From: Sympetrum striolatum
Taxonomy: Eukaryota; Arthropoda; Insecta; Odonata; Libellulidae
Direction: 5' to 3'
Assembly (NCBI GenBank): GCA_947579665.1
Contig: OX388350.1
Location: 28,801,393-28,865,392, forward strand
Length of the DNA stretch: 64,000 nucleotides
The translations under genes and the position numbers were made by a program. This document shows positions 24,646 to 47,189 of the stretch, one piece after another; within the stretch, counting starts at the first letter, position 1, and each line of letters begins with the position of its first letter. The notes below the pieces were generated by a model. The model was not told the DNA's origin and made no database searches. It saw only the letters and a list, made by a program, of their open reading frames with translations.

Positions 24646-24655
24646 TATTATATAT

Positions 24656-25757
24656 ACGAGTAAAATGTAGCTTGCATACTGCTAGCATATCGATAACACT
24701 AATTTCAAGTCGGCATCATATCGAGATGGTTCTCAAAAGAAAGAAATGATTGATAATATTCTTAAAATTTGCTGCATTTTATCTGACCGGCATCAAACAC
24801 GGGTATTCCTGGTGATACTTACTATGCAGCACTACAGAAGTTCACAATCTCTAACTATGTGTGAAAACTCAATCAGATATATTTGCTGCAACTGCCTTAA
24901 ACGACGTCCTACTTTTCCCTTATATTTCTTATGTGAGAAAAGTTAATAGGTCTGGCATCGAACCCAGAAACAGCATGGACTTATCTAATTTTTTTTATCT
25001 TAAACCGAGTCTTAATATACATCTTCTATGTAAGCAAGAACTCCATATTATTTCGATAAGTGCATGAAAGAATTAATGAAATACTATCCCAATGTGTTTT
25101 ATATGGCAGATATATTTACCGCCCCGTATCGAACCTGGGACTTTCTGGTGATACTTCCTATAGAACACTACAGAAGATCACTATCTCTAACTATTTGAGA
25201 AAATTCAGGTAGAAATATTGGCTGCAACTGCCTCAAACGACATCCTACTTTTCCCATATATTCCTTATGAGAGAAATTTTAATGTGCCCCGGTATCGATC
25301 CCAGGAGCAGTATGGTCTTATATAAATTTTTTCTAAATCTTAGTCTTAATATATAACTTCTATATAGGCAAGAACTTCCTATCATTTCGATAAGGGCATA
25401 AAAAAATAAGGAAAAACTACCTCGATGTATTTTAAATAACAGATTTTTGCATCGCCCTAACATCAAACTCAGGATATTTTCTGTAGAAGTCATTTATGTT
25501 TTCGATAGATCATGACCATATATATAGGCTCCTTGAGTTTTAATTCTCTACCTATCCGGGAAGTATTTTTTTTAAATTCCCAAAAATCAAAGCAATGCTT
25601 TAAATGGGAAAAATCAGGACTTTGGGGCCCTCTGGAATCGAACCCATGACACTGATGATCAAAATCGCAATTTTTCTGGTGGTTACACGTTATGGCCAAT
25701 ACGTCGTAAAAATTTCAAGTCAATCACGCTTGTGGTTTACCCTGTGAATTAGCACCC
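24656..25757 (-). repeat. array unit 1, inverted (F), type B, most diverged
   Basis: The hairpin end at 24667-24690 is mutated (TGCTAGCATATCG instead of TGCAAGCAGATCG), as expected for an edge unit that escapes homogenisation. Ends in GTGAATTAGCACCC near 25757. Confidence 0.75.
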
Positions 25758-25793
25758 TATCTATCTATCTATATCCCTATATATATGAATGAA

Positions 25794-25845
25794 TCCGGAG
25801 AAGCATCTATAGATATAATCTATTATATATAGACGCTTCTCCGGA
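25794..25845. repeat. imperfect palindrome at unit 1/2 junction
   Basis: TCCGGAGAAGCATCTAT and the inverted ATAGACGCTTCTCCGGA (one mismatch) flank AT-rich spacer; the junction turns the array from F to R orientation. Confidence 0.7.
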
Positions 25846-25885
25846 TATACCTATATATATATTCATATATATACACATTCATAGG

Positions 25886-26959
25886 GGATCAAAATTCTAA
25901 CCATGTTCCACAAGTGCCACCGACTTGAAATTTTTACGACGTTATGGCCATGACGTGTAACCTCCAGAAAAAGTCCGACTTTGAACCTCAGTGTCATGGG
26001 TTCGATTCCAGAAGGCCCCAAAGTCGCGATTTTCCCCATAAGATTACATGGCGGGGATTTTCGAAAATTTATTTGAGGCACTTCCCGGAAAAGGAGAGAG
26101 TTGAAACTCGAGGGATCGCTAGATGCCGCGCATATCAAAAGGAAACCATAAAGACATCTACGAATATTATCCTTGGTTCGATGCTAGGTCGGGGCAAAAA
26201 TTTGCCGTTTAAAATGCATTGCGGCGATTTTTATGATTTTTTTTGAACCCTTTTCCAATGGCATAGAAACTTGAAATTCGGCATGGCGTTAGATATCATA
26301 ATTATATTTCATAATCAAATTTTAAATATTCCCTTATGGTCCTTGGTTCGATCCCAGAGGGCCATTTACATTCCTCAATGCATTTCTTATGGAGATTACG
26401 GAAACACATTTTAGGTGCTTCCCGATATTATATCTACTTGAAGCTTTGCATAAGATAAGATCAAGTCATTACTAATCAAACTGTGAACTCACAGCTACCA
26501 ATGATTTCTGGTTTCACCACCAGGCTTCTCTACAATCAGTAAATGATCCGATTTTTAAGAATTTTTTGGTACCATTTCCCAATTACATATAAAATTGAAA
26601 TTCAGCATACAGATAGAAACTATAGATACATTTCAGGAACATATTCTAGATTCCCACGATCGTCCTTGGTTCGAATCCAGAGAGCCATTTACATTCGGGA
26701 AAAGTAGAACGTCGTTTGAAGCAGTTGTAGCAAATATTTCTGCTTGAATTATCACACATAGTTAGATATAGTGATCTTCTATTGTGCCGCTTAGTAAGTT
26801 CATCAGGAAGACCCGGGTTCGATGCAAGACGCTGAAATTGAAGCGAATTTTAAGAATATATTCAATCCTTATTTTTCTTTTGAGGACCGTCTCGATATGA
26901 TGCCGAAATAAAATAATATTGCCGATCTGCTTGCAGTATGCAAGCTACATTGAACTCGT
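25886..26959 (+). repeat. array unit 2 (R), type A
   Basis: Diverged start GGATCAAAATTCTAACC; contains the ACATGGCGGGGATTTTCGAA module; ends with the hairpin and ACATTGAACTCGT. Confidence 0.8.
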
Positions 26960-26975
26960 ATCATATCTATTATAT

Positions 26976-28051
26976 ACGAGTAAAATGTAGCTTGCATACT
27001 GCAAGCAGATCGGCAATACTAATTTCATATCGGCATCATATCGGGACGGTCCGAAAAAGAAAAAAAAAGGATTTAATTTTTTCTTAAAATTCGCTGAAAT
27101 TTCATCGTCTGGCATCGAACCCGGGTCTTACTGGTAAACCTACTATAAAACACAATAGAAGATCACCATCTCTAACTATGTCTGAAAATTCAAGCAGAAA
27201 TATTGGCTATAACTGCCTCAAAAAACGTTCTAATTTTCACGAATGTTAATGCCTCTCGGGACTCGAACCAAGGACGATTGTTGAAATCTAAAACATGTTT
27301 CTGAAAGATATTTATGATCTCTATCTATATGCCGAATTTCAAGTTTCTATTTTATTGGTAAAGGTTTCAAAATAATTCCTAAAAATCGGATCAAATTCTG
27401 ATTTCAGAGACACCTGGTGTCGAAACCAGGACGTATTGCAAGCTGTGAATGCAAAGTTTGATTTGTAAAGACTTGCACTTGTATTATGCAAAGTTTGAAG
27501 TTGATAGCATGCCGGAAAGTACCTAAATTTTGTTTCCGTTATCTCCGTAAGAAATGCATTGAGAAGTGCAAATGGCCCTCTGGGATCGAACCAGGGACCA
27601 TCAGCGAACATGTAAAATTTGATTGTGAAGTATATTCCTGATATCTATCCACGTGCCGAGTTTTGAATATCCATGTTATCGGGAAAGGATCCAAAAAAAA
27701 TCTTCAAAATCGCCGTAATGCATTTTAAACGGCCGATTTTTGCCCCGACATAGCATCGAACCATGGACTATATTCTAAGATGTTTTTCTGATTTTTGTTG
27801 GATACGCATGGCTTCTAGCGATCCCTTGAGTTTCAGCTCTTTCTCTCTCCGGGAAGTACCTCAAAAAAATTTTCGAAAATCCCCGCCATGTATTCTTATG
27901 GAGAAAATCGCGACTTTGGGGCCCTCTGGAATCGAACCCATGACCCTGAGGATCAAAATCGCAATTTTTCTGGCGGTTACACGTTATGGACAATACGTCG
28001 TCAAAATTTCAAGTCATTCACGCTTGTGGTTTAGGCTGTGAATTAGTATCC
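26976..28051 (-). repeat. array unit 3 (F), type A; six dyads mapped
   Basis: Back to back with unit 2, hairpin ends facing. B-box dyads (as GGNNTCGAACC on the plus strand) lie at about 27114, 27263, 27420, 27586, 27755 and 27931, spacing 149-176 bp. Confidence 0.85.
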
Positions 28052-28109
28052 TATCTATCTATCTATATAGGTATATCCATGAATGAATCCGGAGAAGCAT
28101 CTATATATA

Positions 28110-29263
28110 ACGAGTTAAATGTAGCTTGCATACTGCAAGCAGATCGACAACACTTATTTCACATGGGCATCATATCGGGACAGTCCTAAAAAGAAAAAAA
28201 AAGTTGAAAATTTTCTTAAAATTCTCTGTAATTTAATCGTCTGGCATCGAACCCGGGTCTTTCTGATGATACATCCAATGTAGCACAACAGAAAATCACC
28301 ACCTCTAACTATGTTTGAAAATTCCAGCGGAAATGTTGGCTTCAAATGCCCCAAAGGACGTCCTACTTTTCCCATATATTCCTTATGAGAGAAATTTTAA
28401 TGTGCTCTGGCATCGAACCCTGGTAGAGCATGGTCATATCTAATTTTTTTCTTAAACCGAGTCTTAATATACATCTTCTAGCAAAGCAAGATTTTCCTAT
28501 TATTTCGATTAAATACAAATAGATACATCAAAATAGAATAAAAAATAATAAATAAAATAGAATACATCAAAATAAATAATGAAAACTAACTCAATGCATT
28601 TTAAATGGGGGGTATATTTACTATCTGGCTTCGGACCCGGGTCTTTCTGGTAATACTTTCTATGCAGCACTAAAGAAGGTCACATCATTTAACCATGTGT
28701 GAAAATTCAAGCAGAAGTAATTGGTGCAACTGCCTCAAATGACGTATTACTTTTCCCTTATATTCCTTATGAGAGAAACTTTTAGGTGCTCCGGCATCGA
28801 ACCCAGGAACAGTAAGGTCTTATCTACATTTTTTTCAAAAATCTATCCTTAATATACATCTTCCATAAAAGCGAGAACTTCCTATCATTTCGATAAGTGC
28901 ATGAAAAAAAATAATGAAAATCTACCTCCATGTATTTCAAATGGCCGATTTTTGCATCGTCTTAGCATTGAACCCAGGATATTTTCCGTAAAAGTCATTT
29001 ATATTTTCGATAGATCATGACCATATATATAGGCTCCTTGAGTTTCGATTCATTACCTATCCGGTAAGTATTTTTTTTTAATTCCTGGAAATCAAAGCAA
29101 TGCATTTAAACGGGAAAAATCGGGACTTTGTGGCCCTCTGGAATCGAACCTATGACACTGAGGTTCAAAATCACAATTTTTCTGGTGGTTGTACGTTATG
29201 GCCAATACGTCGTAAAAATTTCAAATCAATGACGCTTGTGGTTTAGGCTGTGAATTAGTATCC
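28110..29263 (-). repeat. array unit 4 (F), type B
   Basis: Starts ACGAGTTAAATG, hairpin intact; contains a local AAATAGAATA... duplication near 28500-28570. Confidence 0.8.
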
Positions 29264-29297
29264 TATCTATCTATCTATCTAGGTATCTTTTATATAT

Positions 29298-30372
29298 ACG
29301 AGTAAAATGTAGCTTGCATACTGCAAGCAGATCTGCAATACTAATTTCATATCGGCATCATATCGGGAATGTCCTCAAAAGAAAAAAAAAGGATTGAAAT
29401 TTTTCTTAAAATTCGCTGAAATTTCATCGTCTGGCATCGAACCCGGATCTTACTGGTGAACTTACTATGTAGCACAATAGAAGATCACCATCTCTAACTA
29501 TGTGTGAACTTCAAGCAGATATATTGGCTACAACTGCCTCAAAAGACGCTCTAATGTTCACGAATGTAAATGGCTCTCGGGACTCGAACCAAGGTCGATC
29601 TTGGAAATTTAAAAAATGTTTCTGAAATTTATTAATGATCTCAATCCATATGCCAAATTTCAAGTTTCTTTATTATTGGGAAAGATTTCAAAATAATTCC
29701 TAAAAATCGGATCAACTTCTGATTGCAGAGACACCTGGTGTCGAACCCAGGACACATCGATAGCTATGAATGCATAGTTTGATTTGTTAAGACTGGTTCT
29801 TCTATCAAGCTAAGTTTTAAGTCGATAGCATGCCGGGAAGTACCTAAAATTTGTTTCCGTTATCTCCATAAGAGATGCATTGAGAAATGTAAATGGCGCC
29901 CTGGGATCGAACCAAGGACCATCAGCGAATATGTAAAATTCGATTATGAAATATATTTATAATCTTCAACTCCATGCCGAATTTCAGGTTTCCATGCCAT
30001 CGGGAAGGGGTCCAAAAAAAATCTTAAAAATCGCCACAATACATTTTAAACGGCCGATTTTTGCCTCGACCTAGCATCGAACCCAGGATATTTTCCGTAA
30101 AACTCATTTATGTTTTCGATAGATCATGTTCATATATATAGGCTCCTTGAGTTTTAATTCTCTACCTATCCGGAAAGTATTTTTTTTTAATTCCCGAAAA
30201 TCAAAGCAATGCATTTAAACGGGAAAAATCGAGACTTTGGGGCCCTCTGGAATCGAACCCATGACACTGTGGTGCAAAATCGCAATTTTTCTGGCGGTTA
30301 CATTCTATGGCCAATATGTCGTAAAAATTTCAAGTCAATGACGCTTGTGGTTTGGCCTGTGAGTTTGTATCC
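29298..30372 (-). repeat. array unit 5 (F), type A
   Basis: Intact hairpin end at 29298 onward; last module ends at GTATCC before a (TA)n run. Confidence 0.85.
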
Positions 30373-30419
30373 TCTCTATATATATATATATATATATATA
30401 TGAATATATATATGGATAC

Positions 30420-30480
30420 ATGAATGAATCCGGAGAAGCATCTATATATAATAGATAGATGCTTCTCCGGATTCATTCAT
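30420..30480. repeat. perfect 61-bp palindrome between units 5 and 6
   Basis: 26-bp arms beginning ATGAATGAATCCGGAGAAGC with a 9-base spacer and no mismatch. The same palindrome recurs at 41468-41528. Confidence 0.9.
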
Positions 30481-30503
30481 ATATCATATATTCATATATA
30501 TAT

Positions 30504-31604
30504 ACGAGTAAAATGTAGCTTGCATACTGCAAGCAGATCGACAACACTAATTTCATATCGGCATCATATCGGGACGGACATCAAAAGAAAAAAAATTCAA
30601 AATATTCGTAGAATTCGCTGCAATTTAATCACCTGGCAGCGAACCCCTTTCTTCCTGGTGTACTTACTATGCAGCAAAATAGAAAATTACCATATCAAAC
30701 TATGTGTGAAAATTCAAGCAAAACTATCAGGTGCAACTACCTCAAACGACGTCCTACTATTCACATACACTCCTTATTTGAGAAATTATAATGTGCTCTG
30801 GCATCGAACCCAGGAACAGCAGTGTCTTATCTATTTTTTTTTCTTAAACAAAGTGTTAATATACATCTTCCATCTAAGCAAGAGCTCCCTTACATATCGA
30901 TAAATGCATAAAAAAATTATGAAAAGATACCCCATAGTATTATATATGGGTGATATTTTTACCGCCCGGCATCGAACCCGGGTCTTTCAGGCAATACTTT
31001 CTATGCAGCACAAAAGAAAAACACCATCTCTAACCGCGTATGCAAATTCAAGCAGAAATATTGGTTACAACTGCCTCAAATGACGTCCTACTTTTCCTTT
31101 ATATTCCTTATGAGAGAAACATTATTGTGCTCTGGCTTCGAACCCAGGAACAGTACGGTCTTATGAAAATTTTTTTCTAAAACTTATTCGTACCATACAT
31201 CTTCCAGCCAAGCACGAACATCCTATCATTTCGATAAGTGCATCTAAAAAAATAATGAAAAACGGCTCCCATGTATTTTAAAGGGCAGATCTTTGCATCG
31301 TCCTAGCATCGAACCCAGGATAACTTTTGTAAAAGTCATTGATGTTTTCGAAAGTCCAAGACCATAAATATAGGCACCTTGAGTTTTACTTCTCTACCTA
31401 TCCGGAAAGTATTTTTTTTTAATTCCCGAAAATCACGGCAATGCATTCAAACGGGAAAAATCGGGACTTTGGGGCCCTCTGGAATCGAACCTATGACACT
31501 GAGGATCAAAGTCTCTTTTTTCCTGGGGGTTTCACGTTATGGCCAATATGTCATAAAAATTTCAGATCAATGACGCTTGTAGTTTAGGCTGTGAATTTGT
31601 ATCC
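30504..31604 (-). repeat. array unit 6 (F), type B, near-identical to units 13, 16, 17
   Basis: Long stretches match units 13, 16 and 17 in inverted orientation with few differences, including an identical 64-codon by-product frame. Confidence 0.85.
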
Positions 31605-31631
31605 TATCTATCTATCTATCTATATAGGTAT

Positions 31632-32257
31632 ACGAGTAAAATGTTGCTTGCATACTGCAAGCAGATCGACAACACTATTTTCATTTCGGCATCATATCCG
31701 GACGGCCATCAAAAGAAAAAAAAAGATTGAAATTTTTCTTATATATATCTCCATAAGAAATGCATTGAGGAATGTAAATGGCCCTCTGGGATCGAACCAA
31801 GGACCATCAGCGAATACAAAAAATTTGATTATGAAATAAATTTATGATCTCCAACCTCATGCCGAATTTCAAGTATCCATGCCATCGGGAAAGGGTCCAA
31901 AAAAAATCATAAAAATCGCCACAATGCTTTTTAAACGGCCGATTTTTGCCTCGACCTAGCATCGAACTTAGGATATTTTCCGAAAAACTCATTTATGATT
32001 TCGATAGATCTTTACCATATATATAGGCTCCTTGAGTTTTATTTCTCTACCTATCCGGAAAGTATTTTTTTTTTATTCCCGAAAATCACGGTAATGCATT
32101 TAAACGGGAAAAATCGGGACTTTGGGCCCCTCTGGAATCGAACCTATGACACTGAGGATCAAAGTCGCTTTTTTCCTGGGGGTTTCACGTTATGGCCAAT
32201 ACGTGGTAAAAATTTCGAGTCAATGACGCCAGTAGTTTAGCCAGTGAATTAGTATCC
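31632..32257 (-). repeat. array unit 7 (F), internally deleted
   Basis: After the hairpin and first part the sequence jumps at about 31740 (TTCTTATATATATCTCC) to the fourth module; roughly three modules are missing. The following spacer has a GGGTATCT triplication instead of GATA. Confidence 0.8.
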
Positions 32258-32318
32258 TATCTGGGTATCTGGGTATCTGGGTATATCATGAATGAATCCG
32301 GAGAAGCATCTATATATA

Positions 32319-33352
32319 ACGAGTAAAATGTAGCTTGCATACTGCAAGCAGATCGGCAATACTAATTTCATATCGGCATCATATCGGAACGCTCCTCAAA
32401 AGAAAAAAAAAAGGATTGAAATTTTTCTTAAAATTCGCTTAAATTTCATCGTCTGGCATCGAACCCGGGTCTTACTGGTGAACTAACTATGCAGCACAAT
32501 AGAAGATCATCATCTATAACCATGTGTGAAAATTCAAGCAGAAATATTGGCTACAACTGCCTCAAAAGACGTTCTAATTATCACGAATGTAAATGGCTCT
32601 CTGGATTCGAACCAAGGACGATCTTGGAAATCTAAAATTTGTTTCTGAAACCTATATATGATATCTATATATAATAATTCGTAAATATCGGATCAATTTC
32701 TGATTGCAGAGACACCTGGTGTCGAACCCAGGAAATATTGTGATCTGAGAATGCAAAGTTTGATTTGTAAGGGCTGGCTTTTTTATCATGCAAAGTTTGA
32801 AGTCGATAGCATGCCGGGAAGTACCTTAATTTTGTTATCGTTATCTCCGTAAGAAATGCATTGAGAAGTGCAAATGGCCCTCTGGGATCGAACCAAAGAC
32901 CATCAGCGAACATCTAAAATTTGATTATGAAATATATTCATTTTATGTATTCACGTGCCGAGTTTCAAGTTTCCATGCCATCGGGAAAGGGTCCAAAAAA
33001 AATCTTAAAAATCGCCACAATGCATTTTAAACGGCCGATTTTTGCCTCGACCTAGCATCGAACCCAGTATATTTTTAGTAAAACTCATTTATGTTTTCGA
33101 TAGATCATGACCATATATATCGGCTCCTTGAGTTTTGATTCTCTACCTACCCGAAAGTATTTTTTTTTAATTCCCGAAAATCTAAGCAATGCATTTAAAC
33201 GGGAAAAATCGGGACTTTGGGGCCCTCTGGAATCGAACCCATGACACTGAGGTTCAAAATCGCAATTTTTCTGGCGGTTACACAATATGGCCAATATGTC
33301 GTAAAAATTTCAAGTCAATGACGCTTGTGGTTTATGCTGTGAATTTGTATCC
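32319..33352 (-). repeat. array unit 8 (F), type A
   Basis: Typical hairpin end; a short deletion near 32660-32690 removes part of module 3. Confidence 0.85.
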
Positions 33353-33409
33353 TCTCTATATATATATCTATCTATTAAATATAGATGCTTCTCCGGATTC
33401 ATTCAAGGA

Positions 33410-33438
33410 TATAGATAGATAGATAGATAGATAGATAG
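33410..33438. repeat. (GATA)n microsatellite at an F-to-R switch
   Basis: Seven or so tandem GATA units immediately precede unit 9 where orientation changes. Confidence 0.8.
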
Positions 33439-34512
33439 GATACTAATTCATAGCCTAAACTAGAAGCGTCATCGACTTGAAATTTTTACGAAGTATTGGC
33501 CATAACGTATAACCGCCAGAAAAATTGCGACTTTGAACCTCGGTGTCATGGGTTCGATTCCAGAAGGCCGCAAAGTCGCGATTTTCCCCATAAGGATACA
33601 TGGCGGGGATTTTAGAAAATTTTTTTGAGGCACTTCCCGGGAAAGGAGAGATTTGAAATTCAAGGGATCGCTAGATGCCGTGCATATCTAAAGGAAACCA
33701 TAAAGAAATTAACGAAATTCATCCTTGGTTCGACGCTAGGTCGGGGCAAAAATTGGCCGTTTAAAATGCATTATGGCGATTTTTAAGATTTTTTTTGGAC
33801 CCTTTTCCGATGGCATAGAAACTTGAAATTCGGTATGAGGTTAGATACCATAAAAATATATCTTAATCGAATTTTACATATTCGCTGATGGTCCTTGGTT
33901 CGATCCCAGAGGGACATTTACATTCCTCAATGCATTTCTTACGGAGATAACGGAAACAAATTTTAGGTACTTTCCGGCATGCTATCGACTTCAAACTTTG
34001 CATGATAGAAGAGCAGGTCTTAAAAAATCAAACTATGCATTCACAGCTGTCAATGTGTCCTGGGTTCGACACCAGGTGTCTCTGAAATCAGAAGTTGATC
34101 CGATTTTTAGGAATTATATTGAAACCTTTCCCAATAATATAGAAACTTGAAATTCGGCATATAGATAGAAATCATAAATAACTTTCAGAAACATGTTCTA
34201 GATTTCCAAGATCGTCCTTGGTTCGAATCCAGTGATCCATTTACATTCGTGAAAATTAGAAGATCTTTTGAGGCAGTTGAAGCCAATATTTCTGCTTGCA
34301 TTTTCAAACATAGTTAGAGATGGTGATCTTCTATTGTTCTGCATAGAAGTTTATAGTAGAGACCCGGGTTCGATGCCAGACGATGAAATGTCAGCGAATT
34401 TTAAGAAAAATTTCAATCCTTTTTTTTTCTTTTGAGGACCGTCCCGATATTAGGCCGATATGAATTTAGTATTGCCGATCTGCTTGCAGTATGCAAGCAA
34501 CATTTTACTCGT
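33438..34512 (+). repeat. array unit 9 (R), type A
   Basis: Start GGATACTAATTCATAGCC; hairpin end with GCAACATTTTACTCGT. Followed by two tandem copies of the GAATCCGGAGAAGCATC spacer. Confidence 0.85.
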
Positions 34513-34612
34513 ATGATATATGAATGAATCCGGAGAAGCATCTATATATAATAGATAGATATATGAATGAATCCGGAGAAGCATCTATATATAATAGATA
34601 TATATATAGAGA

Positions 34613-35707
34613 GGATTCAAAGTCACAGGCTAAACCACTAGCGTCAATCGCTTGAAATTTTTACGACATATTGGCCATAACGTATAACCTCCAGAAAAAT
34701 TGCGATTTTGAACCTCGATGTCATGGGTTCGATTCCAGAGGGCCTCAAAGTCCCGATTTTTCCCGTTTAAATGCATTGCTTTGATTTTAGGGAATTAAAA
34801 AAAAATACTTTCCGGATAGGTAGCGAATCAAAACTCAAGGAGCCTATATATATGGTCATGATCTATCGAAAACATAAATAAGTTTTTCGTAAAATATCCT
34901 GGGTTCGATGGTAGGTCGGGGCAAAAATTGGCCGTTTAAATTGCATTGTGTCGATTTTTAGGATTTTTTTTGGACCCTTTCCCGATGGCATGGAAATTTG
35001 AAATTCGGCATGGAGTTGAAGACCAATAATAAATTTCAGGATCAAATTTTACATATTCGCTGATGGTCCTTGGTTCGATCCCAGAGGGCCATTTAAATTC
35101 CTCAATGCATTTCTTACGGAGATAACGGAAACAAATAATAGGTACTTCCCGGCATGATAAAGACTTCAAACTTTGCACTAAGAAAGATTAAGTGTATACA
35201 AATCAAACTGTGCATTCCCAGGTGTCAATAAGTACTGGGTTCGACACCAGGCGTCTCTAATATCAGTAACTGATCCGATTTTCAATAATTATTTTGAACC
35301 CTTTCCCAACAATATAGAAACTTGAAATTCGGCATGTAGATAGAGATCATAAATAAATTTCAGAAACATTTTTTAGATTTCCAAGATCAACCTTGGTTCG
35401 AATCCAGAGAGCCATATAAATTCGTGAAAATGAGAACGTCTTTTGAGGCAGTTGTAGCCCATATTTCTGCTTGAATTTTCACACATAGTTAGAGATGGCG
35501 ATGTTCTATTGTGCTGCATAGTAAGTTCAACAGTAAAGACCCGGGTTCGATGCCAGGCGATGGAATTTCTGTGAATTTTAAGAAAAATTTCAATCCATTT
35601 TTTCTTTTGATGGCCGTCCCGATATGATGCCGACATGAAATTGGTATTGCCGATATGAAATTAGTATTGCCGATCTGCTTGCAGTATGCAAGCTACATTT
35701 TACTCGT
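34613..35707 (+). repeat. array unit 10 (R), type A
   Basis: Start GGATTCAAAGTCACAGG; a short CCGATATGAAATTAGTATTG duplication just before the hairpin near 35640-35670. Confidence 0.85.
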
Positions 35708-35766
35708 ATACATGAATGAATCCGGAGAAGCATCTATATATAATAGATAGATATATATATATATAT

Positions 35767-36835
35767 ACGAGTAAAATGTAGCTTGCATACTGCAAGCAGA
35801 TCGGCAATACTAATTTCATATCTGCATCACATCGGGACGGTCCTCTTAAGAAAAAAAATGATTTAATTTTTTCTTAAAATTCGCTGTAATTTCATCGTCT
35901 GGAATCGAACCCGAGTCTTACTGAAAACCTACTATGAAACACAATAGAATATCACCATCTCTATGTGTGAAAATTCAAGCAGAAATATTGGCTACAACTG
36001 CCTCAAAAGACGCTCTAATGCTCTCGAATGTAAATGGCTCTCGGGACTCGAACCAAGGACGATCTTGGAATTTAAAAAATGTTTCTGAAATTTATTATTG
36101 ATCTCAATCTATATGCCGAATTTCAAGTATATATATTATTGAGAAAGGTTTCAAAATCATTCCTAAAAATCGGATCAATTTCTGATTTCAGAGACACCTG
36201 GTGTCGAACCCAGGACATATTGTGAGCTGTGAATGCACAGTTTGATTTGTTAAGACTGGTTCTTCTATCATGCAAAGTTTTAAGTCGATAGCTTGCCGGG
36301 AAGTACCTTAAACTTGTTTCCGTTATCTCCATAAGAAATGCATTGAGGAATGTAAATGGCCCCCTGGGATCGAACCAAGGAACATCAGGGAAAGCATAAA
36401 AATCGATTTTGAAATATATTTATGATATCTAACCCCATACCGAATTTCAAGTTTCCATTCCATCGGGAAAGGTTCCAAAAAAAATCTTAAAAATCGCCAC
36501 AATGCATTTTAAACGGCCGATTTTTGCCTCGACCTAGCTTCGAACCCAGGTTATTTTCCGTAAAACTCATTTATGTTTTCGATAGATCATGACCATATAT
36601 AAAGGCTCCTTGAGTTTTGATTCTCTACCTATCCGGGAAGTATTTTTTAAAAATTCCCGAAAATCACGGCAATGCATTTAAACGGGAAAAATCGGGACTT
36701 TGGGGCCCTCTGGAATCGAACCAATGACACTGAGGTTCAAAACCGCAATTTTTCTGGTGGTTACACGTTATGGCCAATACGCCGTAAAAATTTCAGCTCA
36801 ATCACTCTTCTGGTTTAGGCTGTGAGTTTGTATCC
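35767..36835 (-). repeat. array unit 11 (F), type A
   Basis: Back to back with unit 10 (R-to-F switch, hairpin ends facing across a TA-rich spacer). Confidence 0.85.
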
Positions 36836-36895
36836 TCTCTATATCTATTATATATAGATGCTTCTCCGGATTCATTCATGTATCCATATATATAT

Positions 36896-37971
36896 ACGAG
36901 TAAAATGTAGCTTGCATACTGCAAGCAGATCGACAACACTAATTTCATAACGTCATTATATCGGGACAGTCCCGGAAAGGAAAAAAAAGGATTGAAAATA
37001 TTCTTAAAATTCGCTTCAATTTAATCGTCTGGCATCGAACCCGGGTCTTTTTGGTGAAATTACTATGCAGCACATCAGAAGATCATCCTCTCTAAATTCG
37101 TGTGAAAATTCAAGCAGAAATATTGGCTGCAACTGCCTCAAACGAAAACCTACTTTTCACGAATGTTAATAGCCCTCTGGATTCGAACCAAGGACGATCT
37201 AGGAAATATAAAATATGTTTTTGAAATGTATCTATAAGTTCTATATATATGCCGAATTTCAAGTTTTAATATTATTGGGAAGGGGTTCAAAATAATTCTT
37301 AAAAATCGGATCAGTGACTGATTGTAGAGACGCCTGGTGTCGAACCCTGGACGTATTGGAAGCTGTAAATGCACAAAATGACATGCTAGGACCTGATCTA
37401 ATTTCATAGAAAATTTGAAGTCGATATCATGCCGGGAAGTACCTAAAACTTGTTTCTGTTATCCCTATAAGAAATGCATTGTGGAGTGCAAATGGCCCTC
37501 TGGGATCGAACCAAGGACCATAAGCGAATACAAAAAATTTTATTATGAAATATATTTATGATTTCTAACCCCATGCCAAATTTCAAGTTTCCATGCATTC
37601 GGAAAGGGGTCCAAAAAAAATCTTAAAAATCGCCACAATGCATTTTAAACGGCCGATTTTTGCCTCGACCTAGCATCGAACCCAGGATATTTTCAGTAAA
37701 ACTCATTTATGTTTTCGATAGATCATGACCATATATATCGGCTCCTTGAGTTTTAAGTCCCTACCTATCCGGCAAGTATTTTTTAAAAATTCCCGAAAAT
37801 CAAAGCAATGCATTTAAACGGGAAAAATCGGGACTTTGGGGCCCTCTGGAATCGAGCCCATGACACTGAGGTTCAAAATCGCAATTTTTTTGGCGGTTAC
37901 ACGTTATGGCCAATATGTCGTAAAAATTTCAAGTCAATGACGCTTTTGGTTTAGCCTGTGAATTTGTATCC
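36896..37971 (-). repeat. array unit 12 (F), type A
   Basis: Typical module order and intact hairpin; ends at GTATCC followed by CTATCTGGGTATC. Confidence 0.85.
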
Positions 37972-38048
37972 TATCTGGGTATCTATTATATATAGATGCT
38001 TCTCCGGATTCATTCATATATATACCTATATAGATAGATAGATAGATA

Positions 38049-39150
38049 GGATACAAATTCACAGCCTAAACTACAAGCGTCATTGATCTGAAATTTTTAT
38101 GACATATTGGCCATAACGTGAAACCCCTAGGAAAAAAGAGACTTTGATCCTCAGTGTCATAGGTTCGATTCCAGAGGGCCCCAAAGTCCCGATTTTTCCT
38201 GTTTGAATGCATTGCCGTGATTTTCGGGAATTAAAAAAAAATACTTTCCGGATAGGTAGAGAAGTAAAACTCAAGGTGCCTATATTTATGGTCTTGGACT
38301 TTCGAAAACATCAATGACTTTTGCAAAAGTTATCCTGGGTTCGATGCTAGGACGATGCAAAGATCTGCCCTTTAAAATACATGGGAGCCGTTTTTCATTA
38401 TTTTTTTAGATGCACTTATCGAAATGATAGGATGTTCGTGCTTGGCTGGAAGATGTATGGTACGAATAAGTTTTAGAAAAAAATTTTCATAAGACCGTAC
38501 TGTTCCTGGGTTCGAAGCCAGAGCACAATAACGTTTCTCTCATAAGGAATATAAAGGAAAAGTAGGACGTCATTTGAGGCAGTTGTAACCAATATTTCTG
38601 CTTGAATTTGCATACGCGGTTAGAGATGGTGTTTTTCTTTTGTGCTGCATAGAAAGTATTGCCTGAAAGACCCGGGTTCGATGCCGGGCGGTAAAAATAT
38701 CACCCATATATAATACTATGGGGTATCTTTTCATAATTTTTTTATGCATTTATCGATATGTAAGGGAGCTCTTGCTTAGATGGAAGATGTATATTAACAC
38801 TTTGTTTAAGAAAAAAAATAGATAAGACCATGCTGTTCCTGGGTTCGATGCCAGAGCACATTATAATTTCTCAAATAAGGAGTGTATGTGAATAGTAGGA
38901 CGTCGTTTGAGGTAGTTGCACCTAATAGTTTTGCTTGAATTTTTACACATAGTTTGATATGGTAATTTTCTATTTTGCTGCATAGTAAGTACACCAGGAA
39001 GACCGGGGTTCGCTGCCAGGTGATTAAATTGCAGCGAATTCTACGAATATTTTGAATTTTTTTTTTCTTTTGATGTCCGTCCCGATATGATGCCGATATG
39101 AAATTAGTGTTGTCGATCTGCTTGCAGTATGCAAGCTACATTTTACTCGT
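38049..39150 (+). repeat. array unit 13 (R), type B
   Basis: Inverted near-copy of unit 6, about 7 kb away; orientation is R from here to the array end. Confidence 0.85.
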
Positions 39151-39204
39151 ATATATGAATGAATCCGGAGAAGCATCTATATATAATAGATATATATATA
39201 GAGA

Positions 39205-40279
39205 GGATACAAACTCACAGGCCAAACCACAAGCGTCATTGACTTGAAATTTTTACGACATATTGGCCATAACGTGTAACCACCAGAAAAATTGCGATTT
39301 TGAACCTCAGTGTCATGGGTTCGATTCCAGAGGCCCCCAAAGTCCCGATTTTTCCCGTTTAAATGCATTGCTTTGATTTTCGGGAATTTTTAAAAAATAC
39401 TTGCCGGATAGGTAGGGACTTAAAACTCAAGGAGCCGATATATATGGTCATGATCTATCGAAAACATAAATGAGTTTTACTGAATATATCCTGGGTTCGA
39501 TGCTAGGTCGAGGCAAAAATCGGCCGTTTAAAATGCATTGTGGCGATTTTTAAGATTTTTTTTGGACCCTTTCCCGATGGCATGGAAACTTGAAATTCGG
39601 CAAGGGTTTATATATCATAAATATATTTCATAATAGAATTTTACATATTCGCTGAGGGTCCTTGGTTCGATCCCAGAGGGCCATTTGCACTCCACAATGC
39701 ATTTCTTATGGGGATAACGGAAACACATTTTAGGTACTTCCCGGCATGATATCGACTTCAAACTTTGTATGAAATAAGATGAAGTCCTAATAAGTCATAC
39801 TGTCCACTCGCAGCTACCAATATTTCCTGGGTTCGACACCAGGCGTCACTACAATCAGTAAATTATCCGATTTTTAAGAATGAATTTAAACCCCTTCCCA
39901 ATAATCTTAAAACATGTTATTAGGCATATAGATAGAGAACATAGAGACATTATAAAAACATGTTTTAGATTTCGTAGATCGTCCTTGGTTCGAATCCAGA
40001 GAGCCATTTAAATTCGTGAATATTAGAACGTCTTTTGAGGCAATTGTAGACCATATTTCTGCTTAAATTTTCACACTTAGTTAGAGATGGTTATGTTCTA
40101 TTGTGCTGCATAGTAAGTTCACAGTAAAGACCCGGGTTCGATGCCAGACGATGGAATTTCAGCGAATTTTAAGAAAAATTTCAATCCATTTTTTTCTTTT
40201 GATGGCCGTCCCGATATGATGCCGACATGAAAATAGTGTTGTCGATCTGCTTGCAGTATGCAAGCAACATTTTACTCGT
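39205..40279 (+). repeat. array unit 14 (R), type A
   Basis: First module like units 9-10, later modules like unit 18: mosaic composition. Confidence 0.85.
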
Positions 40280-40336
40280 ATATATCTATCTATTATATAT
40301 AGATGCTTCTCCGGATTCATTCATGGATATACCTAT

Positions 40337-40375
<39 letters not shown>

Positions 40376-40376
<1 letters not shown>

Positions 40377-41451
40377 GATACTAATTCACAGCCTAAACCA
40401 TAAGCGGCATTGACTTGAAATTTTTACGACGCATTGGCCATAACGTGTAACCGCCAGAAAAATTGCGATTTTGATCCTCAGGGTCATAGGTTCGATTCCA
40501 GAGGGCCCCAAAATCGCGATTTTCTCCATAAGAATACATGGCGGGGATTTTCGAAAATTTTTTTGAGGTACTTCCCGGAGAGAGAAAGAGTTGAAACTCG
40601 AGGGATCGCTAGATGCCGTTGATATCCAACGAAAATAAAAAAGACATCGCCGAATATGGTCCATGGTTCGATGATAGGTCGGGGCAAAAATCGGCCGTTT
40701 AAAATGTATTGCGGCGATTTTGAAGATTTTTTTTGAATCCTTTCCCGATAACATGGATACTTGAAACTCGGCACGTCGATAGATATCATGAATAAATTTC
40801 ATAATAAAATTTTATATGTTCGCTGATGGTCCTTGGTTCGATCCCAGAGGGCCATTTGCACTTCTCAATGCATTTCTTACGGAGATAACGGAAACAAAAT
40901 TTAGGTATTTCCCGGCATACTATCGACTTCAAACTTTACATTATACAAGAGCAAGTCTTTACAAATCTAACTGTGCATTCACAGCTTAAAACATGTCCTG
41001 GGTTCGACACCAGGTGTCTCTGCAATCAGAAATTGATCCGATTTTTAGGAATTATTTTGAACCCTTTTCCAATAATATAGAAACTTGAAATTCGGCATAT
41101 AGATAGAGATCATAAATATCTATCAGAAACATATTTTAGAATTCCACGATCGACCTTGGTTCGAGTCCCGAGAGGCATTAACATTCGTGAAAATTAGAAC
41201 GTTTTTTGAGGCAGTTATAGCCAATATTTCTGCTTGAATTTTCACACATAGTTAGAGATGGTGATCTTCTGTTGTGTTTCATACTAGGTTTACCAGTAAG
41301 ACCCGGGTTCGATGCCAGACGATGAAATTTCAGCGAATTTTAAGAAAAAATTAAATCCTTTTTTTTTCTTTTAAAGACCGTCCAGATATGATGCCGATAT
41401 GAAATTAGTATTGCCGATCTGCTTGCAGTATGCAAGCTACATTTTACTCGT
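40376..41451 (+). repeat. array unit 15 (R), type A; six dyads mapped
   Basis: Preceded by a long (GATA)n run (40335-40377). GGTTCGA dyads at about 40490, 40667, 40832, 40999, 41157 and 41305. T-tract at about 41357, hairpin then end. Confidence 0.88.
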
Positions 41452-41467
41452 ATATATATATGGATAC

Positions 41468-41528
41468 ATGAATGAATCCGGAGAAGCATCTATATATAAT
41501 AGATAGATGCTTCTCCGGATTCATTCAT
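41468..41528. repeat. perfect 61-bp palindrome between units 15 and 16
   Basis: Same arms and spacer as 30420-30480. Confidence 0.9.
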
Positions 41529-41559
41529 ATATATACCTATATAGATAGATAGATAGATA

Positions 41560-42664
41560 GGATACAAATTCACAGCCTAAACTACAAGCGTCATTGATCT
41601 GAAATTTTTATGACATATTGGCCATAACGTGAAACCCCCAGGAAAAAAGCGACTTTGATCCTCAGTGTCATAGGTTCGATTCCAGAGGGCCCCAAAGTCC
41701 CGATTTTTCCCGTTTGAATGCATTGCCGTGATTTTCGGGAATTTTTAAAAAATACCTTCCGGATAGGTAGAGATTTAAAACTCAAGGTGCCTATATTTAT
41801 GGTCTTGGACTTTCGAAAACATCAATGACTTTCACAAAAAGTATCCTGGGTTTGATGCTAGGACGATGCAAAGATCTGTCCTTTAAAATACATGGGAGCC
41901 GTTTTTCATTATTTTTTTAAAAGCACTTATCGAAATGATAGGATGTTCGTGCTTGGCTGGAAGATGTATGGTACGAATAAGTTTTAGAAAAAAATTTTCA
42001 TAAGACCGTACTATTCCTGGGTTCGAAGCCAGAGCACAATAACGTTTCTCTCATAAGGAATATAAAGGAAAAGTAGGACGTCATTTGAGGCATTTGTAAC
42101 CAATATTTCTGCTTGAATTTGCATACGCGGTTAGAGATGGTGTTTTTCTGTTGTGCTGCATAGAAAGTATTGCCTGAAAGACCCGGGTTCGATGCCGGGC
42201 GGTAAAAATATCCCCCATATATAATACTATGGGGTATCTTTTCATAATTTTTTTATGCATTTATCGATATGTAAGGGAGCTCTTGCTTAGATGGAAGATG
42301 TATATTAACACTTTGTTTAAGAAAAAAAATAGATAAGACCATACAGTTCCTGGGTTCGATGCCAGAGCACATTATAATTTCTCACATAAGGAGTGTATGT
42401 GAAAAGTAGGACGTCGTTTGAGGTAGTTGCACCTAATAGTTTTGTTTGAACTTTCACACATAGTTTGATATGGTTATCTTCTGTTTTGCTGCATAGTAAG
42501 TACGCCAGGAAGACCGGGGTTCGCTGCCAGGCGATTAAATTGCAGCGAATTCTACGAATATTTTGAATCCTTTTTTTTTTCTTTTGATCTCCGTCCCGAT
42601 ATGATGCCGCTATGAAATTAGTGTTGTCGATCTGCTTGCAGTATGCAAGCTACATTTTACTCGT
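41560..42664 (+). repeat. array unit 16 (R), type B
   Basis: Close to unit 17 and unit 13 along its full length. Confidence 0.87.
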
Positions 42665-42722
42665 CTATTATATATAGATGCTTCTCCGGATTCATTCATA
42701 TATATACCTATATAGATAGATA

Positions 42723-43828
42723 GGATACAAATTCACAGCCTAAACTACAAGCGTCATTGATCTGAAATTTTTATGACATATTGGCCATAACGTGAAACCC
42801 CCAGGAAAAAAGAGACTTTGATCCTCAGTGTCATAGGTTCGATTCCAGAGGGCCCCAAAGTCCCGATTTTTCCCGTTTGAATGCATTGCTGTGATTTTCG
42901 GGAATTAAAAAAAAATACTTTCCGGATAGGTAGAGAAGTAAAACTCAAGGTGCCTATATTTATGGTCTTGGACTTTCGAAAACATCAATGACTTTTACAA
43001 AAGTTATCCTGGGTTCGATGCTAGGACGATGCAAAGATCTGCCCTTTAAAATACATGGGAGCCGTTTTTCATTATTTTTTTAGATGCACTTATCGAAATG
43101 ATAGGATGTTCGTGCTTGGCTGGAAGATGTATGGTACGAATAAGTTTTAGAAAAAAATTTTCATAAGACCGTACTGTTCCTGGGTTCGATGCCAGAGCAC
43201 AATAACGTTTCTCTCATAAGGAATATAAAGGAAAAGTAGGACGTCATTTGAGGCAGTTGTAACCAATATTTCTGCTTGAATTTGCATACGCGGTTAGAGA
43301 TGGTGTTTTTCTGTTGTGCTGCATAGAAAGTATTGCCTGAAAGACCCGGGTTCGATGCCGGGCGGTAAAAATATCCCCCATATATAACACTATGGGGTAT
43401 CTTTTCATAATTTTTTTATGCATTTATCGATATGTAAGGGAGCTCTTGCTTAGATGGAAGTAGTATATTAACACTTTGTTTATGAAAAAAAATAGATAAG
43501 ACCATGCTGTTCCTGGGTTCGATGCCAGAGCACATTATAATTTCTCAAATAAGGAGTGTATGTGAATAGTAGGACGTCGTTTGAGGTAGTTGCACCTAAT
43601 AGTTTTGCTTGAATTTTCACACATAGTTAGATATGGTAATCTTCTATTTTGCTGCATAGTAAGTACACCAGGAAGACCGGGGTTCGCTGCCAGGCGATTA
43701 AATTGCAGCGAATTCTACGAATATTTTGAATCCTTTTTTTTTTTCTTTTGATGTCCGTCCCGATATGATGCCAATATGAAATTAGTGTTGTCGATCTGCT
43801 TGCAGTATGCAAGCAACATTTTACTCGT
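42723..43828 (+). repeat. array unit 17 (R), type B
   Basis: Close to units 13 and 16; minor substitutions and T-tract length changes only. Confidence 0.87.
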
Positions 43829-43876
43829 ATATATGAATGAATCCGGAGAAGCATCTATATATAATAGATATAGAGA

Positions 43877-44951
43877 GGATACAAACTCACAGCCTAAACC
43901 ACAAGAGTGATTGAGCTGAAATTTTTACGGCGTATTGGCCATAATATGTTACCACCAGAAAAATTGCGATTTTGATCCTCAGTGTCATGGGTTCGATGCC
44001 AGGGGGCTCCAAAGTCCCGATTTTTCCCGTTTAAATGCATTGCTTAGATTTTCGGGAATTAAAAAAAAATACTTTCCGGGTAGGTAGAGAATCAAAACTC
44101 AAGGAGCCGATATATATGGTCATGATCTATCAAAAACATAAATGAGTTTTACGGAAAATATCCTGGGTTCGATGCTAGGTCGGGGCAAAAGTCGGCCGTT
44201 TAAAATGCATTGTGGCGATTTTCAAGATTTTTTTTGGACCCTTTCCCGATGGCATGGAAACTTGAAATTTGGCATGGGTTTAGATATTATAAATATATTT
44301 AATAATCAAATTTTATACATTCGCTGATGGTTCTTGGTTCGATCCCAGAGAGCCATTTACATTCCTCAATGTATTTCTTACGGAGATAAAAGAAAAACTT
44401 TTTAGGTACTTCCCGGCATGATATGGACTTCAAAATTTGTATGAAATAAGATGAAGTCCTAATAAGTCATACTCTTCATTCACAGCTACCAATATTTCCT
44501 GGGTTCGACACCAGGCGTCTCTACAATTAGTAAATTAACCGATTTTTAAGATTGAATTTAAGCCCCTTCCCAATAATATTAAAACATGAAATTAGGCATA
44601 TAGATAGAGAAATTAGGTACAATTTAAAAACATGTTTTAGATTTCCTAGATCGTCCTTAGTTCGAATACAGAGAGCCATTTACATTATTGAAAAGTAGGA
44701 CGTCGTTTGAGGCAGTTGGAGCCAATATTTCTGCTTGAATTTTCACACATAGTAAGAGATGGTGATTTTCTGTTGCGCTGCATAGTAGGTTTTCCAGTAA
44801 GACCAGGGTTTGATGCCAGACGATGAAATTTCAGCGAATTTTAAGAAAAAATTAAATCCTTTTTTTTCTTATGAGGACCATCCCGATGTGATGCCGATAT
44901 GAAATTAGTATTGCCGATCTGCTTGCAGTATGCAAGCTACATTTTACTCGT
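43877..44951 (+). repeat. array unit 18 (R), type A
   Basis: One dyad has decayed (AGGGTTTGATGCCAGA near 44808; CTTAGTTCGAATAC near 44657). Confidence 0.85.
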
Positions 44952-45017
44952 ATTCATATATATATATCTATTATATATAGATGCTTCTCCGGATTCATTC
45001 ATATATATACCCAGATA

Positions 45018-46094
45018 GGATACAAATTCACAGGCTAAACCAAAAGCGTCATTGACTTGAAATTTTTACGACGTTATGGCCATGACGTGTAACCTCCAGG
45101 AAAAAGCCGACTTTGAACCTCGGTGTAACGGGTTCGATTCCAGAAGGCCCCAAAGTCGCGATTTTCCCCATAAGATTACATGGCAGGGATTTTCGAAAAT
45201 TTTTTTGAGGCACTTCCCGGAAAAGGAGAGAGTTGAAATTCAAGGGATCGCTAGAAGCCGTGCATATCCAACGAAAATAAAAAAGACATCGCCGAATATG
45301 GTCCATGGTTCGATGCTACGTTGGGGCAAAAATCGGCCGTTTAAAATGCATTGCGGCGATTTTGAAGATTTTTTTTTGATTCTTTCCCGATAACATGGAT
45401 ACGTGAAACTCGGCACGTGGATAGATATCATAAATATATTTCATAATCGAATTTTACATGTTCGCTGATGGTCCTTGGTTCGATCCCAGGGGGCCATTTG
45501 CACTTCTCAATGCATTTCTTACGGAGATAACGGAAACAAAATTAAGGTACTTTTCGGCATGCTATCGACTTCAAACTTTGCGTGATAGAATAACAGGTCT
45601 TTACAAATCAAACTGTGCAATCACAGCTTACAATATTTCCTGGGTTCGACACCAGGTGTCTCTGCAATTAGATGTTGATCCGATTTTTAGGAATTATTTT
45701 GAAACCTTTCCCATTAATATAGATATTTGATATTCCGCATGTAGATAGAAATCATAAATAACTTTAAGAAACATTTTTTAGTTTTCCAAGATCGTCCTTG
45801 GTTCGAATCCAGATAGCCATTTACTTTCGTGAAAATTAGAACGTCTTTTCAGGCAATTGTAGTCAATATTTCTGCTTGAATTTTCACACGTAGTTACAAT
45901 TGGTGTTCTTCTACTCTGCTGCATAGTTAGTTCACCAGTAAGACCCGGGTTCGATGCCAGACGATGAAATTTCAGCGAATTTTAAGAAAAATTTAAGTCC
46001 TTTTTTTTTTCTTTTTAGGACCATCCCGATATGATGCCAATATGAAATTAGTACTGACGATCTGCTTGCAGTATGCAAGCTACATTTTACTCGT
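45018..46094 (+). repeat. array unit 19 (R), type A
   Basis: Carries the ATTACATGGCAGGGATTTTC module variant shared with units 2, 3, 15 and 20. Confidence 0.85.
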
Positions 46095-46113
46095 ATATAT
46101 ATATATATAGAGA

Positions 46114-47189
46114 GGATACAAAGTCACAGGCTAAACCACTAGCGTCAATGGCTTGAAATTTTTACGACAAATTGGCCATAACGTATAACCTCCAGAAAAA
46201 TTGCGATTTTGAACCTCAGTGTCATGGATTCGATTCCAGAGGGCCCCAAAGTCGCGATTTTCCCCATAAGATTACATGGCGGGGATTTTCGAAAATTTTT
46301 TTGAGGCACTTCCCGGAAAAGCAGAGAGTTGAAACTCGAGGGACCGCTAAATGTCGTGCATAGCCAACGAAAATCGGAAAGACATCTTCGAATATTGTCC
46401 TTGGTTCGATGCTAGGCCGGGGCAAAAATCGGCCGTTTAAAATGCATTGCGGCGATTTTTAAGATTTTTTTTGGATCCTTTCCCGGTAACATGGATTATT
46501 GAAACTCGGCACGTCGATAGATATCATGAATTTATTTCATAATCGAATTTTACATATTAGCTTATGGTCCTTGGTTCGATCCCAGAGGACCATTTGCACT
46601 TCCCAATGCTTTTCTTACGGAGATAACGGAAACAAATTTTAGGTACTTCCCGGCACGATATCAACTTCAAACTTTGCATGTACAAAGATCAAGTCCAGAC
46701 AAATCAAACAGTGCATTCACAGCTATCAAAGAGTCCTGGGTTCCACACCAGGTGTCTCTGCAATCAGAAGTTAATCCGATTTTTAGGAATTATTTTGAAA
46801 CCTTTGCCAATAATATAGAAACTTCAAATTCGGCATATAGATAGAGATCATAAATAACTTTCAGAAACATTTTTTAGATTTCCAAGATCGTCCTTAATTC
46901 GAATCCAGAGAGCCATTTAAATTCGTAAAAATTAGAACGTCTTTTGAGGCAGTTGTAGCCCATATTTCTGCTTGAATTTTCACACATCGTTAGAGATGGT
47001 GATGTTCTATTGTGCTGCATAGTAAGTTCACAGTAAAGACCCGGGTTCGATGCCGGACGATGGAATTTAGGCAAATTTTAAGAAAAATTTCAATCTTTTT
47101 TTTTTCTTTTGATGGCCGTCCGGATATGATGCCGACATGAAAATAGTGTTGTCGATCTGCTTGCAGTATGCAAGCAACATTTTACTCGT
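46114..47189 (+). repeat. array unit 20 (R), type A, right edge
   Basis: Last unit; one dyad reads GGGTTCCACACC and another TTAATTCGAATCC, mild decay at the array edge. Outer end is the hairpin end, so both outer ends of the array are the same terminus in opposite orientation. Confidence 0.85.

Follow-up and report, generated by a model that had tools for sequence, protein, structure and literature searches.

A B-box-like motif in the core repeats of a probable Helitron-like element clustered in the genome of Sympetrum striolatum

INTRODUCTION

What is known of Helitron-like transposons concerns mostly their ends. Pearl elements combine a microsatellite-bearing left module, central repeats, and a 3′ palindrome and occur in short dispersed arrays, and in alpha satellite the CENP-B box is one short motif kept in diverged monomers. 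Here, we describe a 22.5-kb array that has the same plan as the former and that, like the latter, keeps a short motif in diverged modules. It lies in a 64,000-nucleotide (nt) stretch of the Sympetrum striolatum genome (GCA_947579665.1, contig OX388350.1, positions 28,801,393 to 28,865,392, forward strand; referred to as the window), and nearly all of its modules carry a match to the B box of RNA polymerase III (Pol III) promoters.

According to the available parts of two papers (PMC5876387 and PMC5148889), Helitrons start with 5′-TC, insert between A and T, have a hairpin close to their 3′ terminus, and can be joined end to end. As to the B box, excerpts of one paper report that TFIIIC binds it with nanomolar affinity, that the A box adds little, and that TFIIIC-only sites exist (PMC11724288); at IR-L of Schizosaccharomyces pombe, B boxes, five of them in a 327-bp span, are described in the excerpted text as forming boundaries without Pol III (PMC4502379). 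On balance, we think it probable that the array consists of ~20 copies of a ~1.15-kb non-coding Helitron-like mobile element and that the motif is a cis-acting site for its spread. Satellite-like arrays with one conserved box are easily read as carrying host functional sites; here, the distribution of variants among copies indicates that propagation of the element itself maintains the box, with near-neutral loss afterwards.

RESULTS AND DISCUSSION

Motif occurrence and conservation in the cluster

The motif GGTTCGANNCC matches the Pol III B box exactly, at all nine fixed positions. It occurred 80 times in the window, always between positions 24,954 and 47,054, compared with a mean of 0.14 and a maximum of 1 in 100 dinucleotide-shuffled sequences. 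The cluster comprises 20 units, mostly ~1.1 kb long, of two types, A and B, which have modules 1 and 2 in common and are present in both orientations (Table 1); unit limits are conventional, set by two sequence anchors and fixed margins. Of 120 modules expected, 116 could be placed: 80 had the exact motif, 27 had one mismatch, 8 had two, and 1 had three, so that 107 of the 116 sites were within one mismatch of the B box. The four unlocated modules are module 2 of U01 and modules 4 to 6 of the shortened U07. The description, in an earlier note on this DNA, of a B-box match recurring in nearly every module, extrapolated there to 110 to 120 sites, was thus borne out.

Information content was 1.74 to 1.93 bits per position over GGTTCGA and 1.80 bits at C10 but mostly <0.6 bits in the flanks. 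Module types compared whole, with the motif counted in, were mostly 38 to 57% identical, apart from eight closer pairs at 62 to 90%, in agreement with the greater divergence of the flanks that the note had reported. The block that stands out across module types is wider than the B box and asymmetric (TCC-NN-GGTTCGA-N-NCC-N-G). The motif is not the only retained one; a 22-mer of the 3′ hairpin, GATCTGCTTGCAGTATGCAAGC, was unchanged at 19 of the array's 20 unit ends, and no invariant stretch of the A units is longer. Within the window, pairwise difference among the 13 A units was 0.050 in the motifs and 0.167 elsewhere, a strong contrast; among the six B units, the contrast was weak (0.081 versus 0.122), and only two of their six motif windows ranked with the best conserved, the other four being middling.

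The short inverted repeat in which the note had placed the motif fared differently. Over 115 sites, pairing of the arms from the loop outward was 95, 63, 75, 79, and 40% in the 8-nt-loop register and 95, 96, 26, 92, and 40% in the 7-nt-loop register of tRNA, and shared variants at arm positions −1 and 0 stood at 66 and 115 per 1,000 cells in A units and at 71 for both positions in B units, close to background. The inverted repeat around the motif is not the conserved feature. These figures also bear on an RNA-level role, in which transcripts would fold the motif into T-arm-like hairpins for T-loop-modifying enzymes or other tRNA-binding proteins. Such a role would fit the 7-nt TTCGANN loop, closed by two standard pairs at 95 to 96% of sites, and the good folding of the single consensuses A4 and B4 (−4.2 and −5.4 kcal/mol with DNA parameters). 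However, pairs 3 and 5 of the tRNA register are kept at only 26 and 40% of sites, positions −1 and 0 vary at near-background rates, modules A1, A5, and A6 barely fold (−0.5 to −0.6 kcal/mol), and the motif has one C fewer than a standard T arm. We therefore rejected an RNA T-arm hairpin as the retained feature, and we regard an RNA-level role as very unlikely.

Genome-wide dispersal and element ends

When 40 of 7,776 first-look candidates were scored, at least 138 pieces matching the units were found on many contigs of the 1.35-Gb assembly. Many of these dispersed pieces were 97 to 99% identical to the unit, some over part of its length only. The right-end 22-mer had 30,570 exact matches in the genome, and its backwards-read control pattern had 0; if every match marks a whole ~1.15-kb unit, the family would amount to ~35 Mb, or 2.6% of the assembly. 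Because of this genome-wide dispersal, we read the array, which the note had treated as a satellite, as a cluster of a dispersed mobile element; spread over many contigs rules out a purely local satellite. For the motif, which stands well above chance in the cluster, membership in a mobile element is a better explanation than a host site borne by a satellite. A regional strand bias of the copies was dismissed as an artefact, since one locus (L059) has an exact minus-strand copy that is absent from the matches listed.

From left to right, the element consists of a 5′-TC end piece, an AT-rich or tetranucleotide microsatellite, six ~150- to 175-bp core repeats, a 3′ hairpin, and CTCG-3′. The hairpin has a 7-bp stem and a 3-nt loop and is followed by 9 nt and CTCG, so that it stops 13 nt before the terminus; the DNA fold of the consensus right end is −7.2 kcal/mol. 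Among 126 ends with an exact hairpin, collected from the window and from other loci, 125 terminated in CTCG and 1 in CTCC, and the next base was T in 124. The left end begins TCTATTATATATAGAYGCTTCTCCGGAT, and intact left ends start TCTATTATATATAGA. The base before the intact 5′-TC was A at 85 of 90 left ends, although these were located via TCTATTATATATAGA, so that the 5′-TC count is conditional on that sequence; three of the five exceptions have CG, as in CTCG/TC (the slash marks a junction). A 5′-TC start against non-element flanks was seen in L061, L063, and other loci, and solitary copies with both ends occur in L060, L061, and L063. A zero-gap head-to-tail junction CTCG/TC lies at window positions 42,663/42,664, and 3 of 24 measured spacers were 0 nt long.

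TA stood on both sides of the element, next to 81 of 90 left ends and 119 of 127 right ends. Insertion was for the most part within TA repeats, which also abound in many spacers. The next feature after the 127 distinct right ends was a forward 5′ piece in 38 cases, an inverted 5′ piece in 35, an inverted right end in 15, and a left module without a 5′ piece in 15; in the remaining 24, no feature was recognized by the script, and a left module is visible by eye in seven. The TA flanks and the inverted 5′ pieces after right ends would suit a cut-and-paste transposon that duplicates TA, or another non-Helitron transposon, with the motif as a transposase site. Against this stand two canonical ends that have no common terminal inverted repeat (longest exact inverted match, 7 nt) and the combination of TC start, 3′ hairpin, A and T flanks, and CTCG/TC junctions, which fits a rolling circle. 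We consider a transposon of this other kind unlikely. For a Helitron-like element, given the self-complementarity of (TA)n and insertion between A and T, nested insertion into TA tracts beside older copies, or recombination between such tracts, could yield the mixed orientation of the clusters.

Two further observations concern the cluster edges. The 5′ end piece also stands inverted, doubled, or at the right edge of clusters (window positions 34,528 to 34,598 and unit junctions; L016, L020, and L058), which lends clusters a terminal-inverted-repeat look. Both edges of the present cluster (24,560 to 24,660 and 47,188 to 47,330) read TTACTCYA/TCTATTATAT from the outside in, on opposite strands; this agreement could be fortuitous or could date from a single original insertion.

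Shared and private variants

A total of 109 distinct units (83 A and 26 B) from the window and 64 further loci were aligned to their type consensuses. Private variants, seen in one copy, are mostly post-insertion, and shared variants, seen in at least two, are mostly inherited from sources. The loci are not a random sample: L001 to L008 are the best matches to one A-type unit, L009 to L028 were hand-picked among the same matches, L029 to L058 are the first 30 right ends among the matches listed, all on one contig (C1), and L059 to L064 were hand-picked among the matches listed. Units cut by a locus end or lacking a recognizable left anchor (up to four mismatches) were excluded before counting, repeats of one unit in overlapping loci were removed by identical core sequence, and all 109 units passed the coverage filter. 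Variant rates of the 22-mer are biased, because it served to find the units.

In A units, shared variants were 9-fold rarer in the motif cores than in the rest (10.5 versus 98.0 per 1,000 cells), whereas private variants were nearly as frequent (6.26 versus 7.25; Fisher P = 0.58). The B type agrees, more weakly, with 16.5 versus 70.6 shared and 16.5 versus 18.2 private variants per 1,000 cells (Fisher P = 0.83). Among 20,000 random placements of six blocks, shared counts as low were reached in none for A and in 0.245% for B, and private counts as low were reached in 22% and 38%, respectively. Sites with any shared variant numbered 16 of 54 in the motif and 615 of 952 in the rest for A and 5 of 54 and 297 of 980 for B. 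When the six windows were slid jointly from −70 to +70, the shared minimum fell at offset 0 in A and was tied between 0 and −1 in B. In A units, the motifs are among the most constrained 12-mers, as are the 3′ hairpin and the 3′ terminus. Private variants outside the motif were 8.05 at CpG and 7.18 at other sites in A and 25.5 and 17.7 in B, and those at CpG sites within the motif were 7.0 in A and 21.0 in B; CpG decay thus does not account for the pattern.

Since shared variants are rare and private ones near background, the motif is under constraint in propagating sources and decays almost neutrally after insertion. Of the comparison of rates inside and outside the motif that the earlier note had suggested, the expected contrast is therefore present in inherited variation and nearly absent from new variation. 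Near-neutral decay argues against a TFIIIC insulator or boundary, or a CENP-B-box-like protein site, kept by host selection; an insulator and a satellite-binding protein site were among the note's hypotheses. A host-level function would be in keeping with the S. pombe IR-L boundaries, formed by B boxes without Pol III (PMC4502379), with the 116 sites in 22.5 kb, and with a private motif/rest ratio that was <1 at all thresholds tried (0.65 to 0.92). But loss of the motif from inserted copies proceeds almost as fast as background change, private mutations striking it nearly as often as the rest in both types, and copies are scattered genome-wide. We judge maintenance by the host quite unlikely.

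Relation to tRNA, Pol III, and TFIIIC

None of the 116 modules had a full match to the A box TRGYNNARNNG within 15 to 95 nt upstream of the B box, and matches with at most one mismatch were found in 30% of modules versus 43% in mononucleotide shuffles. In 58% of the modules, TTTT preceded the B box by no more than 50 nt. ARAGORN (bacterial code) predicted no tRNA gene, and Rfam gave no match at gathering and, over 24 to 48 kb, no tRNA match at an E value of up to 10. A Pol III gene is unsupported, given that neither an A box nor a tRNA body was found: a tandem tRNA gene array was rejected on the zeros from ARAGORN and Rfam, and a Pol III transcription unit per module for lack of an A box and because of the upstream TTTT.

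Elsewhere in the genome, tRNA-like, SINE-looking fragments carry GACCCGGGTTCGATTCCCGG, followed by a T run and TTCAAGTC (L035 at ~481 and ~577 and L038 at ~1344); they fall outside the BLAST matches to units. The motif of module B4, GACCCGGGTTCGATGCCGG, is close to GACCCGGGTTCGATTCCCGG, with one C fewer. A tRNA-derived origin of the motif is plausible from this likeness, with fragments of the L035/L038 type as a possible source. The fragments would also suit the idea that the motif is merely left over from a tRNA-derived SINE, amplified in tandem within the element and now functionless. Such a relic, however, should diverge like its flanks, yet the motif has a 4- to 9-fold lower rate of shared variants, and the Rfam search gave no tRNA match even at the permissive threshold. 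It could explain the origin of the motif but not its retention, and as a full account it is highly improbable.

Given a complete B box, the affinity of TFIIIC for it, and the missing A box, TFIIIC recruitment without a Pol III start is tentatively favored as the most likely single mechanism. Together with the 3′ hairpin and terminus, the motif would act in cis as a site on which the spread of source copies depends. Host TFIIIC, through tau-B, would bind the putative B boxes without starting Pol III, bound TFIIIC would keep the source copy open and unsilenced, and a Rep/helicase from another element would nick and copy it. Recruitment of TFIIIC by source copies is possible on the sequence evidence; the more specific proposal, that six A-box-less B boxes per source copy load TFIIIC so that the copy stays open or positioned for rolling-circle copying, is more doubtful. 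If it is true, ~180,000 decaying TFIIIC-type sites (six for each of the 30,570 matches) would be strewn over one animal genome, and a rolling-circle transposon would be using a Pol III factor in cis.

Ranking close behind is a site for an element-encoded protein, the Rep/helicase or an accessory protein of an autonomous partner, a role that internal sites have in certain other transposons; the resemblance to a B box would then be coincidental or stem from a borrowed tRNA arm. Constraint confined to propagating lineages, its occurrence together with that on the 3′ hairpin and terminus, its extension beyond the B box on both sides, and the absence of an A box would all suit such a site. The agreement with every fixed B-box position tells against it and, to our knowledge, the known Rep substrates are Helitron ends, not the interior. 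We hold this explanation possible but uncertain. Whether TFIIIC or a partner protein is bound, the motif would be a concrete internal cis-element of a Helitron-like transposon.

Several observations weigh against a Helitron-like element with the motif as its site for spread. Inverted 5′ pieces after right ends (35 of 127) are unexplained by simple rolling-circle copying, and a 2-bp duplication of TA could likewise account for the TA on either side. Canonical Helitron1 elements end in CTRR/CTAG, whereas the element here ends in CTCG. Constraint reaches past the B box, some constrained 12-mers in A are non-motif, and of the 13 twelve-mers in B that have no shared variant, most lie beyond the motifs; constraint within the cores is thus not limited to the motif, in B especially. 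When variants seen up to two times were counted as private, the private ratio fell to 0.77 in A and 0.72 in B, and with those seen up to three times, it fell to 0.65 and 0.70, respectively; a lowered ratio is expected if such variants start to include inherited ones, and it leaves room for weak constraint on young copies. Since the terminus is CTCG, not CTRR, we refer to the element as Helitron-like without classing it among the canonical Helitrons.

Cluster features and neighborhood

The coordinates of the cluster, its units, and selected ends are given in Table 1. Core-like modules or motifs outside typical units were seen in L016 (~3,300 to 3,500), L062 (1,535 to 1,700), L017 (1,492), and L023 (1,533), in some of which TTTGA replaces TTCGA; they may point to an older, deeper family. 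Matches to Rfam microRNAs, located mainly at unit junctions, were discarded, as all were below gathering scores and came from AT-rich palindromes. The plasmid collection held no match to the sequence.

Minus-strand exons at 15,079 to 17,857 of the window, with UBX and FAF1 domain matches, belong to a gene that we take to be FAF2-like. A weak Pfam "Conotoxin" match at 15,619 to 15,837 fell short of the family cutoff and appears to be a chance hit in an exon that is charged and coiled-coil-like. At 10,313 to 10,740, a 215-bp sequence is present as two tandem copies (99% matches), beside a minus-strand open reading frame (9,958 to 10,284) that resembles a mariner-type transposase by eye and had no Pfam match at an E value of 0.01.

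Table 1. Cluster, units, and element ends, with motif sites by number of mismatches (window positions)
Feature	Type	Position	Strand	Exact	One mismatch	Two mismatches	Remark
Whole cluster		24648-47199					20 units (9 on -, 11 on +) and AT-rich spacers; BLAST of unit consensuses to window, 8 merged segments
U01	B	24645-25761	-	24954, 25634	25125, 25291	24789	
U02	A	25882-26970	+	25999, 26345, 26668	26175, 26816		
U03	A	26965-28055	-	27111, 27259, 27582, 27928	27416, 27752		
U04	B	28099-29267	-	28243, 28409, 28793, 29140	28627	28964	
U05	A	29287-30376	-	29433, 29580, 29737, 29903, 30249	30073		
U06	B	30493-31608	-	30800, 30968, 31134, 31481	30635, 31305		
U07		31621-32261	-	31788, 32134		31958	Shortened, 641 bp, three module sites
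U08	A	32308-33356	-	32455, 32603, 32718, 32884, 33229	33054		
U09	A	33434-34523	+	33551, 33897, 34063, 34220, 34367	33727		
U10	A	34609-35718	+	34726, 35072, 35238, 35395, 35544		Unit position 294	
U11	A	35756-36839	-	35901, 36044, 36200, 36366, 36712	Unit position 294		
U12	A	36885-37975	-	37031, 37179, 37336, 37502	37672, 37848		
U13	B	38045-39161	+	38162, 38509, 38675, 38842	38338, 39007		
U14	A	39201-40290	+	39318, 39664, 39830, 39987, 40135	39494		
U15	A	40372-41462	+	40489, 40835, 41001, 41158, 41306		40665	
U16	B	41556-42675	+	41673, 42020, 42186, 42353	42518	41849	
U17	B	42719-43839	+	42836, 43183, 43349, 43516	43012, 43681		
U18	A	43873-44962	+	43990, 44336, 44502	44166, 44807	44659	
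U19	A	45014-46105	+	45131, 45477, 45643, 45800, 45948	45307		
U20	A	46110-47200	+	46573, 47044	46227, 46403, 46739	46896	
3′ end of U16		42629-42663	+				Hairpin GCTTGCA-gta-TGCAAGC, 9 nt, CTCG; one of 20 right ends in cluster
5′ end of U17		42664-42691	+				TCTATTATATATAGA...; starts on base after U16 CTCG
5′-TC end piece left of U15		40289-40316	+				Intact
Inverted 5′-TC pieces after + units (examples)		34528-34555, 34571-34598, 35720-35747, 39163-39190, 41476-41503, 43841-43868	-				

Comparison with known systems

The element shares with canonical Helitron1 elements, such as Helraiser, the 5′-TC start, a 3′ hairpin ~10 to 13 nt from the end, insertion between A and T, and head-to-tail copies. 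It differs from them in being non-coding, in having six core repeats, each with a B-box-like motif, and in forming TA-flanked clusters of mixed orientation. With HINE, DINE-1, and the oyster Cg_HINE, as far as these are described in the available parts of PMC7492417 and PMC4067079, it has in common a microsatellite left module, central satellite-like repeats, a 3′ palindrome, and occurrence in many short dispersed arrays. Membership in HINE/Helentron was rejected on two counts. In place of their 11- to 15-bp subterminal inverted repeats, the longest inverted match was 7 nt when one 95-nt left end was compared with the last 135 nt of the A consensus, and insertion is not in T/T, the element having A before it and T after it. 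The cores here also carry a B-box motif under constraint at the level of propagation, which the available HINE text does not mention, and among the titles and abstract beginnings listed in the literature searches, none concerned a B-box motif in Helitron or HINE core repeats.

PcH-sat, a SINE-derived satellite of the limpet Patella, is likewise satellite-like and linked to a tRNA-related mobile element; according to the accessible part of its description, it is without boxes A and B (PMC11121367), whereas the B box here is among the best-kept parts of the cores. In comparison with the CENP-B box, maintenance at the level of the host is unsupported here. TFIIIC-only (ETC) sites and the S. pombe IR element resemble the present case in that B boxes are proposed to act without Pol III (PMC11724288 and PMC4502379, in the portions available), and the IR element also has several B boxes in a short span (PMC4502379). 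In contrast to both, the element described here is mobile and is present in ~30,000 copies that decay almost neutrally after insertion.

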